Source: Pseudooctadecabacter jejudonensis (lineage in GTDB: Bacteria; Pseudomonadota; Alphaproteobacteria; Rhodobacterales; Rhodobacteraceae). From it: a stretch of 64,000 nt of DNA. Below the pieces are notes generated by a model. The model ran no database searches, was not told the DNA's origin, and saw only the letters and a program-made list of their open reading frames with translations. This document shows positions 7,214 to 38,665 of the stretch, piece by piece (within the stretch, counting starts at the first letter, position 1; each line of letters opens with the position of its first letter). The position numbers and the translations under genes were made by a program. The DNA lies in the NCBI RefSeq assembly GCF_900172275.1, contig NZ_FWFT01000002.1, positions 558,001-622,000 of the forward strand, in the 5' to 3' direction.

Positions 7214-8043
7214 CCCAACACCGCTGCACGCGCGTCGACGTCAACCTCGGGGCGGGTTCCGAACCACCTTTCAAACCCGGGAACAGCTTGATGCAAAAGC
7301 ATGCCAAGCCCGTCCACGGTGACGCATCCTGCGGCCTCGGCCTCTTGTAGGAATCTGGTTTTCAATGGGGAATAAACCAAATCAGTGACAACCGTTCCCC
7401 GACGCAACCCATCCAGCGGCACCCGCAATTCGGGCTGTCCCGTCATCCCAAGGGAGGTGGTGTTGACCACCGTGGCGGAGTCCTCAAGAATATTTCCGGC
7501 CTGCACCCAATCCACCACCGTCACTTTGGTGCCGAAAGCAGATTGCAATGCCTCAGCTTTGGGACGCGTTCGGTTGCTGAGGAAAATTTCCTGCACGCCG
7601 ACATCGATCAAGGACGCGATCACAGCACGCGCCGCACCACCTGCACCAAGAACAGCTGCTGGCCCAATCGAAGGCGCCCACCCTGGCGCACCTTGTTTCA
7701 GGTTGGCGATAAACCCATAACCGTCCGTGTTGTCTGCATGAATTTTGCCATCCCGCCTGAAAATCAACGTATTGGCAGCGCCAATCAATGTAGCCCGATC
7801 TGTCGCCAAATCCGCAATCTGCAGCACATCCACCTTATGGGGCAACGTCACATTACATCCGACAAACCCCATCTTGGGCAGGGACCGAATGACGCTTTCC
7901 AAATCACCCTCAGCGACATGCATGGGGACGTAAAAGCCGGGCCGGTTGTAGGTTTTCAACCAATGTCGGAACAGGTGCGGAGATTTGGAATGTGCGATGG
8001 GGTTTCCAATCACACCTGCCAATGGAATTTTGTGTTCAGTCAT
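7210..8043 (-). CDS. aroE: Shikimate dehydrogenase (NADP+)
   Basis: Reduces 3-dehydroshikimate to shikimate in aromatic amino-acid synthesis. The 277-residue protein has the N-terminal substrate motif GVIGNPIAHSKSP, in which the two Ser residues bind shikimate, the catalytic Lys in NVTLPHK (about 67), NADNTDGYGF, and the Rossmann loop VLGAGGAARAV followed by SNRTRPKA, in which the Arg favours NADP. The 3' end has GLGMLLHQAVPGFERWFG, typical of AroE. It overlaps coaE and maf by 4 bases each. Confidence 0.96.
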   Translation of the reverse strand: MTEHKIPLAGVIGNPIAHSKSPHLFRHWLKTYNRPGFYVPMHVAEGDLESVIRSLPKMGFVGCNVTLPHKVDVLQIADLATDRATLIGAANTLIFRRDGKIHADNTDGYGFIANLKQGAPGWAPSIGPAAVLGAGGAARAVIASLIDVGVQEIFLSNRTRPKAEALQSAFGTKVTVVDWVQAGNILEDSATVVNTTSLGMTGQPELRVPLDGLRRGTVVTDLVYSPLKTRFLQEAEAAGCVTVDGLGMLLHQAVPGFERWFGTRPEVDVDARAAVLG

Positions 8044-8639
8044 GTCGGCAGCGTCCCGCGCAAAGTAAGGTAAGACAAAAGCTCCAACAACGGCAGCCCT
8101 TGGATGGTAAAGGTATCGCCCTGCACCATGCGAAACAACCGGATGCCTTCTTCTTCGATTTTATACCCACCCACGGACCAACGGATGCTGTCCCAGTTTC
8201 GTTCAACATAATCCTCAAGATAGGCGTCGGAGAAATCGCTCATGGTCAGACGGGCGACGCCCACATGACGCCAGACCGGTTTCATGTCTTCGTAAATCAC
8301 GGCCGCTGACAAAAGTTGATGCGTTTCACCCCGAAGCAAGCGCAACTGAGACATGGCATCTGCAACGTCTTCCGGTTTGGACAAAACCTGACCTTTGAAC
8401 GACAACACCTGATCACAGCCAAGCACCAAACCCCCGCCCCCTTTTTCCGCGACCTTGCGCGCCTTCATCTCGGCCAAGGTATCGGCAATATCACGCGGTG
8501 GGGCATCCTCTGCCTGAAGTGCATCTTTAACCGAATCTTCATCAATTCGGGGTGGAGTGATTCCAACGCGTACACCGGCAGATCTGAGAAGTCTGGCCCG
8601 GCTTTCTGACGCAGAGGCCAGAATAAGGTCAAAAGACAT
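8040..8639 (-). CDS. maf: Maf-family nucleotide pyrophosphatase
   Basis: A 199-residue Maf/YhdE/YceF-type protein. These hydrolyse non-canonical or modified nucleoside triphosphates; the exact nucleotide preference cannot be read from sequence. Visible family motifs are LILASASESRARLLRSAG at the N-terminus, the metal-binding E in ARKVAEKG, LGCDQVL, and the SVGGYKIEEEGIRLF segment. It is the first gene of the maf-aroE-coaE-dnaQ operon, transcribed away from the 0.5-kb origin-like gap, so its promoter should lie inside 8640-8800. Confidence 0.93.
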   Translation of the reverse strand: MSFDLILASASESRARLLRSAGVRVGITPPRIDEDSVKDALQAEDAPPRDIADTLAEMKARKVAEKGGGGLVLGCDQVLSFKGQVLSKPEDVADAMSQLRLLRGETHQLLSAAVIYEDMKPVWRHVGVARLTMSDFSDAYLEDYVERNWDSIRWSVGGYKIEEEGIRLFRMVQGDTFTIQGLPLLELLSYLTLRGTLPT

Positions 8640-8784
8640 GTGGATATCCTCGTGGGTTATCTGTTGGACATGTGATGGGATGGTTTGGGCGCAAAAACAA
8701 GAACCCTCCTCATCCTCGAATTCTATCCCGTCTGTCCCACACGCAGTCCCGTGTTATCCCCTTGGGACAAGGAAGAATCGGTGT

Positions 8785-8793
8785 TGTGGATAA
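8785..8793 (-). promoter_or_regulatory. DnaA box, perfect consensus
   Basis: TGTGGATAA on the plus strand is the complement of the strong DnaA-binding consensus TTATCCACA, with no mismatch. It is in the non-coding gap between maf and rho. Confidence 0.7.
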
Positions 8794-8913
8794 ATCTGGC
8801 GCGGACTCATAACATCCATCATTGCAATCTTCGTTTCATAGAAAAATGCGTGAATCTACAGTGAGAAACAGTGTTTCTTGAAGTGGGCGTATATAGTCTT
8901 TTGCGCAAATCAG

Positions 8914-8922
8914 CGTGGATAA
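8914..8922 (-). promoter_or_regulatory. DnaA box, one mismatch
   Basis: CGTGGATAA on plus reads TTATCCACG on minus, one base from the consensus and in the same orientation as the perfect box 129 bases upstream. Confidence 0.55.
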
Positions 8923-8949
8923 GTCTTTGGGTATCAGAGCTGTCCACAC

Positions 8950-8958
8950 TTATCCTCA
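8950..8958 (+). promoter_or_regulatory. DnaA box, one mismatch
   Basis: TTATCCTCA differs from TTATCCACA at one position and lies in inverted orientation to the box at 8914. A two-mismatch CTGTCCACA lies just before it at 8940-8948. Box plus neighbour sit directly next to the AT-rich 13-mers. Confidence 0.45.
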
Positions 8959-8977
8959 GCACAACAACATCATCTTC

Positions 8978-9003
8978 CTTTTTAAAGATTCTTTTTAAGA
9001 AGA
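8978..9003 (+). repeat. Two tandem AT-rich 13-mers (possible unwinding element)
   Basis: CTTTTTAAAGATT is followed directly by CTTTTTAAGAAGA; the first eight bases are identical and nine of thirteen match. A further AAAAATTG follows. Position and composition resemble the 13-mer duplex-unwinding repeats of other bacterial origins. Confidence 0.45.
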
Positions 9004-9143
9004 AGAAAAATTGAGGTCCGATCCAGCTGACCTCATGGAATTGACAGAGATGGTGGGACGTCCTAACAGTCTGTCATCCTTCGTCCGAAGGTGGTTTTCC
9101 AGAACTAAGAATGAAAAGGCTGCTTTCGTGGCCGGAGATGCTG

Positions 9144-10430
9144 ATGTCGACTGAGATGACGTCCAACGACCGTTTGAACCTTGCTGATCTAAAGGCACAA
9201 AGCCCGAAAGATCTGTTGTCTCTCGCTGAAGAGCTGGAGATTGAGAACGCGTCGACCATGCGCAAGGGCGACATGATGTTCGCCATTCTCAAAGAACGGG
9301 CAGAAGAAGACTGGGTTATTGGTGGTGACGGCGTTCTTGAAGTGTTGCAGGACGGCTTTGGCTTTTTGCGGTCCCCTGAGGCAAATTATCTGCCCGGTCC
9401 GGATGACATTTATGTTTCTCCTGAAATGATCCGTCTTCATGCGCTTCGGACAGGTGACACGGTTGAAGGTGTCATGAAGGAGCCGTCGGACACGGAACGG
9501 TATTTCGCGCTGACAACTGTTGAGAAAATCAACTTCGAAGACCCAGAAAAGGCGCGTCACAAAGTGGCGTTCGACAACCTGACGCCTCTGTATCCCGATG
9601 AGCGTCTGAAGATGGAAACGGACGACCCAACCACCAAGGACAGGTCAGCGCGGATTATTGATCTGGTTGCCCCGATCGGGAAAGGCCAGCGATCTTTGAT
9701 CGTGGCCCCGCCGAGGACTGGTAAAACGGTTCTCTTGCAGAACATCGCGCATTCAATCGCGGCAAATCACCCCGAGTGTTATCTGATCGTCTTGTTGATT
9801 GACGAACGCCCCGAAGAAGTCACGGACATGCAGCGATCTGTGAAGGGCGAAGTGGTGTCGTCCACGTTTGATGAGCCGCCGTCCCGTCACGTTGCCGTAT
9901 CTGATATGGTCATTGAAAAGGCCAAACGGCTGGTCGAACACAAACGTGACGTGGTGATCCTTTTGGATTCGATCACGCGTTTGGGCCGCGCATTCAACAC
10001 GACCGTTCCGTCGTCGGGTAAGGTGCTGACCGGTGGTGTGGACGCCAATGCCCTGCAACGTCCAAAACGGTTTTTTGGTGCAGCTCGGAATATTGAAGAA
10101 GGTGGATCCCTCACGATTATCGCAACAGCGTTGATTGATACGGGCAGCCGCATGGATGAGGTGATCTTTGAAGAGTTCAAAGGCACCGGTAACTCGGAAA
10201 TTGTTTTGGATCGCAAAGTGGCGGACAAACGCGTGTTCCCAGCGATGGATATCTTGAAATCCGGGACCCGCAAAGAAGACCTCTTGGTGGACAAGGTGGA
10301 TCTGCAGAAAACTTATGTCCTACGTCGTATTTTGAACCCAATGGGCACGACGGATGCAATCGAGTTCCTGATCTCAAAATTGAAACAAACGAAAACCAAT
10401 TCTGATTTCTTCGACTCGATGAACACGTAA
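9144..10430 (+). CDS. rho: Transcription termination factor Rho
   Basis: Hexameric RNA-dependent ATPase that terminates transcription. The 428-residue form starts [14 protein letters not shown] cold-shock-like RNA-binding fold spans about residues 40-120 ([18 protein letters not shown]). The ATPase core has Walker A APPRTGKT (about 188-195), Walker [11 protein letters not shown], the Q-loop segment [27 protein letters not shown] and the R-loop around [17 protein letters not shown]. The start at 9144 is preferred because GGAG lies 6 bases upstream; an in-frame ATG at 9111 would add 11 residues with no clear ribosome site. It is the first gene on the right side of the origin-like gap. Confidence 0.97.
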
Positions 10431-11750: not shown

Positions 11751-13628
11751 TTGTTTCACGTGAAACATGAGATGGACGTTGTTGTTGTGGGTGGTGGGCA
11801 TGCAGGTTGCGAAGCAGCATGTGCTGCCGCGCGTATGGGGGCTACGGTTGCCTTAGTGACGCTAAAGAAAAACGATATCGGCGTTATGTCTTGCAACCCG
11901 GCAATCGGAGGGTTGGGAAAAGGACACCTCGTCCGCGAAATTGACGCGCTAGATGGTGTTATGGGTGTTGCGGCTGATCATGCCGGCATCCAATTTCGGT
12001 TACTCAACAGAAAGAAGGGCCCGGCGGTACAGGGACCTCGGACACAAGCCGATCGAAAATTGTACCGTAAGGCAATTCAAGACTTGGTTTGCTCTAACGA
12101 AAATCTAACAATTCTGGAAGGCGAAGTTGTCGACCTAATGATCGATAGAGGCGCCTGCAGAGGGGTTGTTTTGAAGGATGGATCGCAGATCAAAGCGTCT
12201 TCTGTGATCCTGACGTCAGGAACGTTTCTGCGGGGGGTCATTCACATCGGTGATAAGTCATCGCCTGGTGGTCGAATGGGCAATGATCCGTCGATTGCAT
12301 TGGCCCAGAGATTGGACAATTTGGATGTTCAATTGGGTCGGTTGAAAACAGGTACGCCGCCTCGTCTTGATGGCCGGACGATCAATTGGTCAATTTTGGC
12401 ATCGCAAGACGCGGACGACGATCCTGAGGTGTTTTCATTTTTGCACTCTGGCCCGATTGTGCGTCAAATCTCTTGCGGGATTACGCACACAAACCCGAAA
12501 ACTCACAGAATTATTGCCGAAAATTTGGAGAAGTCTGCCATGTATGGCGGTCATATCGATGGGGTCGGTCCAAGGTACTGTCCGTCAATCGAAGACAAGA
12601 TCGTCCGGTTTGGCGACAAAGACTCACATCAAGTCTTCCTGGAACCTGAGGGACTTGACGATCATACTGTTTATCCAAACGGGATATCGACGTCTTTGCC
12701 GATCGATGTTCAGCATGATTATGTTCACTCCATGGTTGGCTTGGAACACGCTAAAATCCTCCAGCCAGGTTATGCAATCGAATATGATTTTGTGGATCCT
12801 AGAAATCTAAGCATGTCCTTGGAGGTTAAAGCTTTGGCTGGGCTATATCTGGCGGGGCAGATCAACGGTACAACAGGATATGAAGAGGCTGCTGCCCAGG
12901 GCTTGGTTGCGGGTCTGAATGCAGCTGCTGCGTCTCAAGGAAAAGATCCGATCATTTTTGATCGTTCGACGTCCTACATCGGTGTGATGATTGATGATTT
13001 GACCGTCAGGGGTGTAACGGAGCCCTATCGGATGTTCACGTCGCGCGCAGAATTCCGACTTTCGCTGCGCGCAGATAATGCAGACCAAAGACTAACAGAG
13101 GCGGGTTGGCATTGGGGATGTGTGAGTGAAGATCGTTGGACGCTGTTTAAGCAGAAAGCTGACGCTTTGACGGCAGGTCGGTCATTGCTTATGTCGCATT
13201 CGGCATCATCTCGACAGTTGCATGAAATTGGGGTCAAGGTGGGTAAAGATGGTCCACAACGGACGCTCTATGATGCTCTTTCGATTGCTGGAACGACGAT
13301 CAGTCAACTTGCTGAACTAAATGATGAGGTAGGTCGCATCGAGTCGCCAATTGGCGTGCAACTCGAAAGGGACGCACTCTACGCAAATTACATCGCGCGG
13401 CAGGCAAATGATGTGGACGCCCTGAAAAAGGATGCTGAGAAGCAAATTCCGAGAGACTTTGACTACAACCGTATCACGGGTCTCTCCAATGAGCTTAAGT
13501 CAAAATTAACGGTGGCGAAACCTGACAATATCGCACAGGCCGGCCGAGTGGATGGCGTAACCCCTGCGGCCTTGATGCTTATTCTGGCTGATCTGCGTCG
13601 GGGCGCGACGCCCAAGAAAGCCTCGTGA
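11751..13628 (+). CDS. mnmG: tRNA uridine-5-carboxymethylaminomethyl modification enzyme MnmG (GidA)
   Basis: FAD-dependent enzyme that works with MnmE on wobble U34. The 625-residue protein has the dinucleotide-binding [33 protein letters not shown], the second FAD motif [13 protein letters not shown] and the [12 protein letters not shown] stretch of GidA. The start is uncertain. TTG at 11751 gives MFHVKH, the N-terminus usual in relatives where the first codon is ATG, but the GAGG at 11746-11749 is too close to it. GTG at 11760 has that GAGG 10 bases upstream and may be the real start. A perfect parS site covers these codons. Confidence 0.95.
11752..11767. promoter_or_regulatory. parS: parS centromere site 1
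   Basis: TGTTTCACGTGAAACA is a perfect 16-base palindromic ParB-binding site. It spans the possible start codons of mnmG and lies about 3.3 kb from parB. ParB bound here would nucleate partition complexes and may also affect mnmG expression. Confidence 0.92.
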
Positions 13629-14233
13629 TGTCAGCGCACAATTTGGATGTTTCACGTGAAACAAAAGAGAAGTTAGAAGAATACGTCCGACTGCTGGCCA
13701 AATGGAACAAGTCGATTAATCTAGTCGCCCCCGTTTCACTAAATGACGTATGGTCCCGTCATATTGAGGACAGCGCCCAAATCATGAGCTTCGCTGATTC
13801 AAATTGGGAGACCTGGATCGACATTGGAAGCGGAGGAGGTCTCCCTGGTCTGGTTATCGCGATTTTGGATGAGCAACATCGTCCAATTACGCTTGTCGAA
13901 AGTGATACCCGAAAATGTTCCTTTCTCCGAACAGTCAAGAGAGAGCTTAACCTGAACGTTGATGTTCAAAACCTCAGAATTGAACACTTTCGTGGCAGCG
14001 CGGCAGACATTTTGTCAGCACGCGCATTGGCCCCCCTAGATCAACTGCTTCAATTTGTGCCTCATCTGCTGAAGGCTGATGGAAAAGCGTTATTTTTAAA
14101 GGGAGAGACGCACCGCGATGAGATTGAGGTGGCCCAAGAAAATTGGCGCTTTGAACTTACAGTTCATCCAAGTAAGACTCATCCAGCAGCCGGAATTCTT
14201 GAAATTGCAGGATTGAAGCCCCGTGAATCTTAG
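13628..14233 (+). CDS. rsmG: 16S rRNA (guanine-527-N7) methyltransferase RsmG (GidB)
   Basis: Methylates G527 of 16S rRNA using SAM; loss gives low-level streptomycin resistance in other bacteria. The 201-residue protein has the SAM-binding region WIDIGSGGGLPGLVIAI (about 59-75), followed by LVESDTRKCSFLRTV and the SARALAPLDQLL motif. The ATG at 13628 overlaps the mnmG stop as TGATG; a GTG three bases earlier is possible. The parS site at 13648 encodes VSRET near the N-terminus, a tell-tale of parS in rsmG. It overlaps parA by 11 bases. Confidence 0.95.
   Translation: MSAHNLDVSRETKEKLEEYVRLLAKWNKSINLVAPVSLNDVWSRHIEDSAQIMSFADSNWETWIDIGSGGGLPGLVIAILDEQHRPITLVESDTRKCSFLRTVKRELNLNVDVQNLRIEHFRGSAADILSARALAPLDQLLQFVPHLLKADGKALFLKGETHRDEIEVAQENWRFELTVHPSKTHPAAGILEIAGLKPRES
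13648..13663. promoter_or_regulatory. parS: parS centromere site 2
   Basis: Second perfect copy of TGTTTCACGTGAAACA, wholly inside the 5' coding part of rsmG, 1.4 kb before parB. With site 1 it makes a pair spaced about 1.9 kb apart. Confidence 0.92.
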
Positions 14234-15038
14234 TCGTACGACCAACCCAAAAATCTATGCAATTGCGAACCAGAAAGGCGGCGTGGGAAAGACCACCACA
14301 ACCATTAATTTGGGGGCCGCTTTGGCAAAACAAGGCCAGCGTGTTCTCCTGATTGATCTCGATCCCCAAGGCAACGCGTCAACCGGCTTGGGCATAGATC
14401 CCAACGACCGTTCATTGACGACCTATGACCTCCTTTCAGGAGACGCCACGCCGAGTGAGATCGCACAAAAGACAACGATTGAAGGTTTGACAATCATTCC
14501 TGCGACAACCGACTTAAGCTCTGCTGACATGAACCTTATGGCGAATGAAAAACGAAGTTATATGCTGCATGACGCTATTCATCAGCCTGATATCGATCGC
14601 CTCGACCTCGACTATATCTTGATCGATTGCCCACCTTCCCTCAATATTTTGACGGTCAACGCGATGATTGCCGCAGATGCAGTCATTGTGCCGTTGCAAA
14701 GTGAGTTTTTTGCACTCGAAGGGTTGTCTCAGCTGATGCTCACCGTACGCGAGGTTCGCCAAACTGCGAATGCAAAATTACGGATCGAAGGCGTCGTTCT
14801 GACAATGTACGACAAGCGGAACAACCTGTCTCAGCAGGTTGAAGAGGACGCGCGCCAGAACCTTGGGGACATGGTGTTTCAAACCGTCATTCCAAGAAAC
14901 GTCAGGTTGAGCGAGGCTCCCTCTTTTGCATTATCCGCGATCGACTATGATCCGACATCCAAAGGGTCGCTCGCCTATGTCAGTCTCGCCAAAGAAATCA
15001 TGGAACGAACGCCCACTCAAAATCGGAGGTCAGGATGA
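14223..15038 (+). CDS. parA: Chromosome-partitioning ATPase ParA
   Basis: Deviant-Walker ATPase that binds the nucleoid and moves ParB-parS complexes at segregation. The 271-residue protein has the deviant Walker A KGGVGKTT (18-25), the DLDPQGNASTGLG motif, and the Walker B LIDCPPSLN. There is no N-terminal helix-turn-helix, as expected of chromosomal (type Ib-like) ParA rather than the longer plasmid form. It starts with GTG inside the last codons of rsmG and its TGA overlaps the parB ATG, so rsmG-parA-parB is translationally coupled. Confidence 0.95.
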   Translation: MNLSRTTNPKIYAIANQKGGVGKTTTTINLGAALAKQGQRVLLIDLDPQGNASTGLGIDPNDRSLTTYDLLSGDATPSEIAQKTTIEGLTIIPATTDLSSADMNLMANEKRSYMLHDAIHQPDIDRLDLDYILIDCPPSLNILTVNAMIAADAVIVPLQSEFFALEGLSQLMLTVREVRQTANAKLRIEGVVLTMYDKRNNLSQQVEEDARQNLGDMVFQTVIPRNVRLSEAPSFALSAIDYDPTSKGSLAYVSLAKEIMERTPTQNRRSG

Positions 15039-15925
15039 GCAGCTCTAAACGCAACAACCGCGGGTTGGGCCGCGGTCTCTCTGCCCTCATGTCAGACGTT
15101 GCACCGAACGATCCGGATCCATCATCCGCCCCAACGTCTGCAGAACGTTTTATTGCCATAGATCAGATCTACCCAAACCCTGATCAACCGCGCCGAACCT
15201 TTGATGATCAAGCAATGGAGGATCTAACCGCCTCGATCGCTGAAAAGGGCGTGATTCAACCGCTGATCGTCCGTCGCAAAGATGGCCCAAAGGGCGCATA
15301 TGAAATCGTCGCAGGCGAACGACGCTGGCGTGCATCGCAAAAGGCACAGCTCCACGAAGTCCCCGTCATCGTCAGAGAGTTCGACGATGTCGAAGTTCTC
15401 GAAGTCGCCATTATCGAGAACATCCAACGGTCAGATCTGAATGCCATCGATGAGGCTGCGGGGTATAAGCAGCTGATGGAAAAATTTGGTCGAACCCAGG
15501 AAGAAATGGGAAAGGCCCTTGGCAAAAGCCGAAGCCATATCGCAAACTCCGTCAGGCTCCTGACCTTGCCGGATTCAGTTCAAACCCTCTTGGCCGATGG
15601 TCGGTTATCCTCCGGGCATGCGCGGACGTTGGTGGGACACCCTGATGCAGACACTCTTGCGGCGGAAATCGTCAAAAAAGGCTTGTCGGTTCGGGATGCC
15701 GAAAAGCTCGCGAAGGCCGGAAAATCATCAAAGCAGAAAGCCAGCCAGCCCGCACCAAAGGCGAAAGATGCGGATACAGTTCAAGTCGAAAATGAACTTG
15801 CCGCACAGTTGGGCATGAAAGTCAGTGTCAATCACGCAGCGGGACGCGAAAATGGGCAACTGGTGCTTCATTACCGTGACTTGGAACAGCTTGATGATCT
15901 TCTGCGGCTCCTGTCTGGGGGCTAG
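15035..15925 (+). CDS. parB: Chromosome-partitioning CTP switch protein ParB
   Basis: Binds parS and, as a CTP-dependent clamp, spreads along DNA. The 296-residue protein has an N-terminal basic RGLGRGLSALM box for ParA stimulation, the ParB/Srx domain with QPRRTFDD and the CTP-pocket GERRWRA, and the IIENIQRSDLNAIDEA motif. A helix-turn-helix (MGKALGKSRSHIANSVRLL) recognises parS, and a C-terminal dimerisation segment ends the protein. The two parS sites are upstream in mnmG and rsmG. The end overlaps hemW by 4 bases in convergent arrangement. Confidence 0.96.
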   Translation: MSSSKRNNRGLGRGLSALMSDVAPNDPDPSSAPTSAERFIAIDQIYPNPDQPRRTFDDQAMEDLTASIAEKGVIQPLIVRRKDGPKGAYEIVAGERRWRASQKAQLHEVPVIVREFDDVEVLEVAIIENIQRSDLNAIDEAAGYKQLMEKFGRTQEEMGKALGKSRSHIANSVRLLTLPDSVQTLLADGRLSSGHARTLVGHPDADTLAAEIVKKGLSVRDAEKLAKAGKSSKQKASQPAPKAKDADTVQVENELAAQLGMKVSVNHAAGRENGQLVLHYRDLEQLDDLLRLLSGG

Positions 15926-37544: not shown

Positions 37545-38099
37545 TTACTGAATGGCCAGCGGATTGGCTTCTGCGACAGCGCCCGCGCGTGTGCGGTCTG
37601 CCAGAACAAGGGTCCACCAGATTTTGCCGTTCGCTTCCTGAAACCATGAAAAACCCATGTCGTTTGCAGCCGGATCAAGCAAAACAGCGCGCGTATTCGG
37701 GCGCTGCATCCATGCTGCCAGCGTTTCAAGCTCTGTCTCATAAGTCTCAGAGATCGTTTCACCGGTCAGTTGGCCTGCATAGCCAACACGGCGCAGACGG
37801 TCGATTGGGGACGACCCATCAGATCCGAAGTGCCATGGCCGATTCTGAACCGACATATCCCGCGAATGAGTCGCGGCGGCAGCATTCAGCTGCGCGTTCA
37901 GTTGGACAGGGCCAGCGCCTGCTGCTTGTCGCAGCGCATTTAGTCCGTCCACCATTCTGAACTGAATATCCGGTCCATCCTGTGCGGAAATCCGATAAAT
38001 CTGCTGCGCAGGAAGGCCATCCGGGCCCACAGGTGCGGATGTGCTACAGGCGCTGAGCCCAAGACCGGCGATTCCCAAAAGAAATGAACGACGACGCAT
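37545..38099 (-). CDS. CAP-domain (SCP/PR-1-like) lipoprotein
   Basis: A 184-residue protein starting MRRRSFLLGIAGLGLSAC-S, a lipoprotein signal with a Tat-like triple Arg. The mature part is a CAP domain (NALRQAAGAGPVQLNAQLNAAAATHSRDM; HFGSDGSSPIDRLRRVGYAG; GETISETYET; NDMGFSWFQ). CAP proteins lack a common activity; bacterial members occur in cell envelopes. The start at 38099 has AAGGGA upstream with spacing of 6-9. It may have a role in the envelope with the neighbouring L,D-transpeptidase. Confidence 0.85.
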   Translation of the reverse strand: MRRRSFLLGIAGLGLSACSTSAPVGPDGLPAQQIYRISAQDGPDIQFRMVDGLNALRQAAGAGPVQLNAQLNAAAATHSRDMSVQNRPWHFGSDGSSPIDRLRRVGYAGQLTGETISETYETELETLAAWMQRPNTRAVLLDPAANDMGFSWFQEANGKIWWTLVLADRTRAGAVAEANPLAIQ

Positions 38100-38372
38100 T
38101 GATGATCCCTTATCGGTTTTGTCCGCAATATCGCCTAAAACCGAGCTATTCAAACCTTCAGATGTGCAAAATGGTTCCCGCTGCATTCACATTCGTTTGT
38201 GAAACATGATGTACCAATCACACGTACAAATCGTTGAATTTGTTTAAGTTATTGAAATAAATATATGAATTTTGCGCCCTATGCTACGATGTGGCGACAA
38301 TGTGACGGCGAAGTGTTGCTGATATGACGACAGGTGCGTCGGAATACTGCTACGATTGGCAATGTCTTTGCA
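38100..38372. other. Non-coding AT-rich gap
   Basis: The 273 bases between the CAP lipoprotein and the promoter of the 63-aa gene have no supportable ORF. They hold an AT-rich part (about 38216-38275) and presumably the CAP gene promoter near 38150. I see no tRNA or clear repeat. Confidence 0.6.
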
Positions 38373-38401
38373 TTCTGATTGCATCCATGATTTGGGATAA
38401 T
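38373..38401 (+). promoter_or_regulatory. Candidate promoter of the 63-aa gene
   Basis: TTCTGA, 17 bases, then GATAAT (five of six in the -10). Transcription would begin near 38408, leaving a leader of about 66 bases that starts with the stem-loop at 38419. Confidence 0.45.
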
Positions 38402-38418
38402 CCGAGGAAAGTCTTGGG

Positions 38419-38455
38419 TGCCCATGGCGCAACCTCAATAAATTTGCCGTGGGCA
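38419..38455 (+). other. 5' leader stem-loop of the 63-aa gene
   Basis: TGCCCATGGC and GCCGTGGGCA can pair over ten positions with one G-U wobble around a 17-base loop. The hairpin ends just before the A-run and the ribosome site GGAG at 38462. It could stabilise the message or control translation. Confidence 0.55.
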
Positions 38456-38473
38456 AAAAACTGGAGAACGAAA

Positions 38474-38665
38474 ATGAAAAAATTTGCACTTGCTGCTGCA
38501 TTCGCTGGCGCTGCTTCCACTGCTTTCGCAGGTAACGTTGCTGCCCCGATCATCGAAATGGAACCTGTTGTAGTGATCGAAGAAACCGCTGGTTCTTCCT
38601 CCTCCGCAGGCCTGATCATTCCACTGATCCTGGTTGCTCTCATTGCTGCTGCAATGAACGACTAA
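38474..38665 (+). CDS. Small secreted or membrane protein, 63 residues
   Basis: Starts MKKFALAAAFAGAASTAFA-G, a clear Sec signal peptide. The mature part has an acidic stretch with conserved-looking EMEPVVVIEE, a Ser-rich spacer GSSSSAG and a C-terminal hydrophobic segment LIIPLILVALIAAAM. The result is a small membrane-anchored or assembled peptide with both ends hydrophobic. I recognise similar small proteins in Rhodobacterales but know no function. It is flanked by its own promoter, a leader hairpin and a strong terminator, as for a highly expressed monocistronic unit. Confidence 0.82.
   Translation: MKKFALAAAFAGAASTAFAGNVAAPIIEMEPVVVIEETAGSSSSAGLIIPLILVALIAAAMND

Follow-up and report, generated by a model that had tools for sequence, protein, structure and literature searches.

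The Caulobacter origin (Cori) was the sole experimentally identified alphaproteobacterial origin at the time of the study that described its boundary genes, hemE and COG1806 (PMC1914354). DnaA boxes and CtrA sites number five each in Cori, alongside a single IHF site (PMC1914354). In the Rhodobacteraceae, Kopejtka et al. (2019) pinpointed oriC in 101 of 109 strains with Ori-Finder, using the GC disparity minimum, a local GC minimum, DnaA boxes, and the proximity of parAB (PMC6699656; for Ori-Finder 2022, see PMC10225481). The origins of Rhodobacter sphaeroides were placed by skew and checked with OriFinder (PMC6315104), and oriC of Phaeobacter is mentioned without description in the text covered (PMC12363192). 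We found no account of the anatomy of a roseobacter maf-rho origin in the literature searched, with supplements and most subscription papers outside its coverage. For the opening of origins, a basal unwinding system has been defined in which a DnaA box is followed, after no more than 16 bp of spacer, by three or more 3'-NAN-5' trios, of which the most frequent is 3'-GAT-5'; its authors also suspected deviant trios, with an example that lacks the middle adenine (PMC8287927).

The DNA analyzed here, a stretch of 64,000 nt called the window, is 558001–622000 of contig C6 in the draft genome of Pseudooctadecabacter jejudonensis (G000; 3.41 Mb, 15 contigs). Its Maf protein has its closest named relatives in Octadecabacter, and the chromosome is Octadecabacter-like, within the Roseobacteraceae. 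Since nearness to parAB has served as an oriC criterion (PMC6699656), an origin was to be expected in this neighborhood. A first-pass annotation had proposed one between maf and rho, citing DnaA boxes at 8785, 8914, and 8950, an AT-rich tract, GANTC sites at 8775, 8852, and 8987, a switch of gene direction, and parA, parB, and two parS sites nearby. We recovered all of these elements at those places: the box at 8785 is exact, the tract is 76% AT, maf (−) and rho (+) diverge from the gap, and a GANTC site at 8804 had been overlooked. The features are as follows, in window coordinates.

8040–8639, minus strand: maf, left flank (Pfam PF02545, E 9.6e-42)
8639–8647, minus strand: DnaA-box-like ATATCCACA, overlapping the maf start; GTGGATA invariant in 16/16 genus gaps
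8640–9110, no strand: maf-rho intergenic gap, proposed oriC from box cluster, conservation, and slot homology
8754–8762, plus strand: box B, TTATCCCCT in the window, two mismatches
8775–8779, no strand: GANTC (GAATC), CcrM-type site, in 16/16 aligned genus gaps
8785–8793, minus strand: box C, TTATCCACA, exact
8804–8808, no strand: GANTC (GACTC), in 14/16 aligned genus gaps
8853–8866, plus strand: place of the IHF-like site in the genus; window copy with three mismatches
8914–8922, minus strand: box D, TTATCCACG
8940–8948, plus strand: box E1, CTGTCCACA, two mismatches, one base ahead of box E2
8950–8958, plus strand: box E2, TTATCCTCA
8966–9015, no strand: AT-rich, easily melted tract, presumed unwinding element, 76% AT
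8969–8983, plus strand: DnaA-trio-like array ATC ATC TTC CTT TTT, 10 nt after box E2
9041–9046, plus strand: TTGACA, −35-like element facing rho, in 16/16 genus gaps
9111–10430, plus strand: rho, right flank; first codon uncertain, perhaps 9156
11752–11767, no strand: parS 1, within mnmG
13648–13663, no strand: parS 2, within rsmG
14223–15038, plus strand: parA (Pfam PF13614, E 2.1e-60)
15035–15925, plus strand: parB (Pfam PF02195, E 1.1e-35)

We conclude from these sequence comparisons that the maf-rho gap is very probably the chromosomal replication origin. The earlier interpretation as oriC is supported by the clustering of boxes, conservation in genus and family, the parS and parAB neighborhood, and the slot that the gap occupies in outgroups.

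The start of rho, which sets the right border, is known approximately: most relatives align only from residue 5–20, and rho of locus L063 begins at the homologue of residue 16. The draft genome has two parS sites, each less than 5 kb from the gap, and no further site with up to one mismatch was found in it. Both lie inside coding sequence, one at the start of mnmG and one at that of rsmG; two RNA-modification genes thus carry the centromere within them. Scans of the window with Rfam (gathering scores) and for tRNAs gave no match.

The gap contains three boxes with at most one mismatch, against 0.07 expected from dinucleotide shuffles. We scanned 737 kb for boxes (400 kb contiguous of contig C6 and 337 kb from other stretches), and the densest 471-bp cluster was the gap together with the maf-start box, with four boxes; the other 337 kb had a maximum of two per 471 bp. 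The runner-up in the 400 kb, three boxes at 631 kb of C6, was rejected as an origin because it sits in a coding ORF. Exact boxes numbered 17 in the whole genome, one of them in the gap, versus 23 for a reversed control pattern. An intergenic box cluster above chance, as sought in a DnaA-type oriC, is thus present. The conservation of the box-like sequence at the maf start may instead serve maf translation.

The dnaA gene (C6, 426 kb) is 140 kb to the left of the gap. In G022 this distance is 217 kb, and in G002 it is about 90 kb if the contig is circular. Around dnaA, the strand-biased octamers are mostly on the minus strand and the GC skew goes from plus to about zero to minus, the reverse of an origin; the 2.5 kb examined there contain one single-mismatch box. 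Distance and the lack of an origin-type switch speak against an origin at dnaA, and we rejected it on these grounds together with the single box.

DnaA also acts as a transcription factor. The gap could accordingly serve maf and rho as a divergent promoter under DnaA control and nothing more, with the origin at dnaA or elsewhere, and the TTGACA element and a hairpin that both face rho would suit such a role. We regard it as extremely improbable, given the box count and reversed skew at dnaA, a dnaA distance that varies among genomes while the maf-rho slot is constant, and the retention of the module where an extra gene parts it from rho (UPF0093 in the example typed). TTGAC occurs in 39 of the 40 gaps of up to 600 bp, a count made without a shuffle control, and a promoter scan found no promoter at the TTGACA element.

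The hairpin, at 9078–9091, has a GTCC loop and is followed by a T-rich stretch; it lies ahead of rho, about 37 nt past the start of TTGACA. Its stems vary among genera with compensating changes (CCTTC/GAAGG, CCTTTC/GAAAGG, GAACCC/GGGTTT, TGCCC/GGGCA, and CATACC/GGTGTG). The GTCC loop was seen in 13 of the 40 short gaps, and 11 of the 40 had no hairpin by the rule applied. It has no Rfam match and is a candidate 5' leader element of the rho mRNA.

The genus set comprised 16 Octadecabacter-type gaps including that of the window; MAGs and one Pseudooctadecabacter are among them, species may repeat, and loci L054 and L055 were left out as exact repeats of L025 and L026. These gaps measure 471–512 bp (16 genomes, to the rho start of the window). 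Boxes recur about 114, 145, 274, and 310 nt away from maf; each of these places has one in the majority of species, though not in every one. At the place of box B, 9 of 15 genus relatives have TTATCCAC, and an inverted GGATAAG follows in 13 of 15. The gap aligns in islands, which are, from maf to rho, the maf-start box, TTATCCAC, the inverted GGATAAG, an invariant GAATC, TGTGGATAA, GACTC, the IHF-like core, GTGGATAA, a plus-strand box, the period-3 element, the T-rich tract, and TTGACA facing rho. Between islands the commonest base accounts for only 0.4–0.6 of each column. This pattern looks like selection on spaced binding sites rather than on coding sequence. Most relatives have better matches for box E2, the trio element, and the IHF-like site than the window does.

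Across the family, 28 of the 30 loci extracted (window included) have rho no more than 1.5 kb from maf, and it was found in 13 of 13 named loci. The family count used 87 of 92 gaps, the window's own among them; L049, L050, and L226 were dropped because no rho was found, and L149 and L166 because rho was beyond 1.1 kb. Six of the 87 (L061–L066), two of them Pelagimonas, come from another collection and may repeat genera. A Maf match was present in 79 new family genomes, of which we took 60, and 14 outgroup gaps were counted separately. At least one box was present in 82 of 87 family gaps and at least two in 65 of 87 (shuffles, 0.10 and 0.00, respectively). Many family gaps are about 450 bp longer, and in many genera an extra ORF precedes rho. 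The one example typed is UPF0093 (E 3.8e-58), which we take to be hemJ.

In four of four outgroup alphaproteobacteria, COG1806 (PF03618) and hemE adjoin maf and point away from a gap. In the two outgroups whose coordinates were compared (G044 and G046), the longest G-free tract, next to DnaA-box-like sequence, is within the hemE-COG1806 gap. COG1806 was not found in the four Roseobacteraceae tested, and in all four hemE is far off or on another contig (C7 in G000). Because the outgroup slot beside maf has COG1806 and hemE, the Roseobacteraceae gap would be the same origin with its neighbors removed; most simply, it is a Cori-type slot minus those genes.

GANTC sites were not clearly enriched in the gap (four, versus 2.8 in shuffles). 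An IHF-like site with up to one mismatch was found at the aligned place in 11 of 16 genus gaps; across whole gaps such sites barely exceed shuffles (12 of 15 vs. 59% in the genus, 46 of 87 vs. 36% in the family). CtrA sites were searched in the TTAA-N7-TTAA form only. None was found in the window gap or in the 15 other genus gaps, and 6 of 87 family gaps had one (7%, vs. 1% of shuffles). CtrA control through this form of site in the gap was rejected, since there is no such site. Loss of ctrA is harmless to growth and viability in the Rhodobacterales studied, some of which do show an effect of ctrA on replication (PMC8116508).

Strand composition, which the first-pass annotation had proposed as a check on the origin, gave a divided answer. 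The cumulative GC skew minimum of the 400 kb is at 586,678 (window 28.7 kb), 20 kb from the gap. The change point of the octamer GGGNAGGG is at 579.5–586.2 kb (interval 578.3–587.7), and the fourfold-site split, in a model that allows for gene strand, is at 585.4–587.1 kb (interval 583.5–592.8). The three measures therefore switch on the par side of the gap, 12–20 kb from it, and its position of 566.9 kb falls outside the model intervals. The octamer change point of G002 lies 14 kb away from the gap on the same side. The opposite octamer switch in G002, at 1.30–1.44 Mb, faces the gap (3.14 Mb) from roughly the other side of the 3.23 Mb contig; the fourfold-skew split of this genome ran to the end of the stretch and was uninformative.

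These measures could mean that the working origin of the genus is about 20 kb to the right, near the divergent gap at argG (28.05–28.61 kb), and that the maf-rho gap is a relic. In G000 all three switch at or near that place, genes of both strands between hemN and argG have negative fourfold skew, and an origin at 28.6 kb fits the skew apart from rho-mnmG. That segment is still positive (+0.22), so the switch in G000 is not simple. Moreover, no box with up to one mismatch occurs between 18.97 and 35.7 kb, and only two with two mismatches in 27.5–30.5 kb. The six species with shifted mutS skew hold three to four boxes each in the maf-rho gap, at shared places, and in G022, whose gene order is the same although it belongs to a different genus, the switch is at the gap (octamer interval 1167.9–1184.1 kb, which contains it). 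A relic gap is thus very improbable. Since the place of the skew minimum has no boxes, we rejected an origin there and kept the maf-rho gap.

Local skew minima were taken in eight genomes, over 60–100 kb around the gap in each. Relative to maf they lie at +20.0 (G000), +20.1 (G002), −17.9 (G022), −21.2 (G083), −31.5 (G135), +25.6 (G120), −0.1 (G101), and +1.9 kb (G013). Local skew is a blunt tool, as this scatter across genera shows, and its minimum can lie 20 kb away from an origin. Seven of the eight genomes have the same order of genes between hslU and a point past argG; the exception is G120. A de novo search for strand-biased octamers in C6 pinpointed no place: the best splits scatter, mostly about 510–660 kb. 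GGGNAGGG is one-stranded at all C5 places listed, over the first 381 kb of that contig; so strong a strand bias makes it helpful for orienting and ordering the contigs of drafts.

The plus-strand fourfold skew in G000 is +0.22 from rho to mnmG, −0.19 from rsmG to parB, −0.29 from hemN to argG for plus and minus genes alike, and +0.06 beyond argG. There is thus a skew island at window 13.6–28.3 kb, with −0.19 to −0.29 on both gene strands and gene order as in other genera, and the three switch measures track this island. Its left edge is near the second parS, and no DnaA-box cluster was found at its far end. Of 11 genus members, 6 have a mutS skew of −0.29 to −0.44, and the other five range from −0.16 to +0.09. 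Among ten other family genomes it is equally negative in one (G018), where mutS is about 190 kb from maf. An old inversion that was later reversed would fit as the cause of the island.

To the right of box E2 is the easily melted AT-rich element expected beside the boxes of a DnaA-type oriC. The 50-bp windows from 8961–8966 have 76% AT and are the second locus of the window in this respect. The second least stable 60-bp stretch starts at 8951, tied to rounding with 58123 (computed with stacking values). The least stable is 38212–38271, between divergent ORFs (37545–38186, minus; 38324–38665, plus), and no DnaA box with up to one mismatch was found within 1 kb of it.

On the box strand past the last plus box, the longest G-free tract of the 87 family gaps has a median of 44 nt and lies at about 332 nt from maf; the controls were 21 nt in shuffles and 22 nt for C-free tracts. 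Tracts of at least 36 nt were found in 73 of 87 versus 3 of 87. The family tract often opens with a period-3 stretch such as CCTACAAAATCATCATC, followed by TTTTCTTT. Together, the boxes, the period-3 tract, and the G-free tract make up a conserved module that presumably serves strand opening. The window has CAACAACATCATC, and the strand opposite its five-triplet array reads 3'-TAG TAG AAG GAA AAA-5'. We applied the basal unwinding definition with a DnaA box of up to two mismatches, a spacer of 0–16, and at least three trios; the window conforms to it, with five trios that start after a spacer of 10 behind box E2. At least five trios after a box, the level of the window, was reached by 1.25% of 400 shuffles.

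The period-3 tract might nevertheless not be read by DnaA, the gap being an origin whose opening element is an ordinary AT-rich region; we lean away from this alternative while taking it as a real possibility. Just 15 of the 87 family gaps have five trios or more on the box strand (the other strand reaches this in 2 of 87, shuffles in 2.1%), the median under the published rule is 3 (shuffle mean 1.2), the other strand of the window also has a run of four trios after box C, and the repeat unit varies between lineages. Against it, ATCATC is strand-specific, has period 3, and keeps a nearly fixed place (the box strand has it in 54 of 87 gaps, the opposite strand in 2 of 87, and shuffles in 4.6%). 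With a median of just three trios and five in 15 of 87, the trio reading of the array is plausible, not proven, and a reading of ATC arrays by DnaA is our inference.

On the box strand, CTA corresponds to the canonical 3'-GAT-5' and ATC to 3'-TAG-5'. The ATC form keeps the middle A and so differs from the suspected deviant example; an assignment of the ATC repeat as lacking the middle A was dropped, because another frame fits the 3'-NAN-5' rule. Of the 15 other Octadecabacter gaps, 12 carry CTACTA and 5 carry ATCATC. We tentatively suggest, as a possibility rather than a probability, that Roseobacteraceae origins open through a divergent trio array with the unit 3'-TAG-5', that the genus switched to 3'-GAT-5' at the homologous place, and that the window species retains the family form.

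DnaA has many genus-specific residues, among which are those at 216, 219, and 224. We claim no covariation of DnaA with the repeat type, because G000 shares these three residues while carrying the ATC form. The alignment of 31 reading frames kept L235, L237, and L238, which lack the P-loop pattern and are probably not DnaA. Besides dnaA, genomes G004, G008, and G022 each have 8–15 short-protein matches to the DnaA ATPase domain model; these are presumably IstB-type transposon helper ATPases.

If the gap is the origin, DnaA would bind boxes B and C on the left and D and E on the right, sites that are themselves observed. In the genus, an IHF-type bend between the two groups could bring them together, at a site that is degenerate in the window species. 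DnaA-ATP would then extend from plus-strand boxes E1 and E2 onto the trio-like period-3 element, opposite 3'-NAN-5', the adjacent T-rich tract would open, and the helicase would be loaded there. Forks would depart both ways, and parS, 3–5 kb to the right, would let ParB and ParA segregate the fresh origins. The GANTC sites could provide CcrM timing.

The origin of a large marine bacterial family would thus be fixed to one definable gap, although in the genomes tested one boundary gene was not found and the other has moved. With the origin fixed in this way, draft genomes can be oriented and growth can be read from coverage. Two things are new here, the skew island and the change of repeat type within the presumed opening element. 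The ATC/CTA exchange poses a testable question, how much trio sequence DnaA needs; if the trio reading is true, it is a natural swap experiment on the reading of single-stranded DNA by DnaA.

Compared with Cori of Caulobacter crescentus, the gap occupies the same chromosomal slot by outgroup comparison, and it shares DnaA boxes, an AT-rich tract, and, in the genus, a candidate IHF-like site (PMC1914354). It differs in its borders, since the four Roseobacteraceae tested have hemE elsewhere and gave no COG1806, and in TTAA-N7-TTAA sites, five in Cori and none in the window gap (PMC1914354). The predictions of Kopejtka et al. (2019) name neither maf nor rho nor the anatomy of the gap in the text covered (PMC6699656). 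With the basal unwinding system of Bacillus subtilis and others, the gap shares tandem plus-strand boxes, a 10-nt spacer, and a T in the middle of each triplet on the box strand (PMC8287927). The units of the window and of 54 of the 87 family gaps begin 3'-TAG-5', unlike the most frequent 3'-GAT-5', whereas the CTACTA of 12 of the 15 Octadecabacter relatives gives this canonical trio (PMC8287927).
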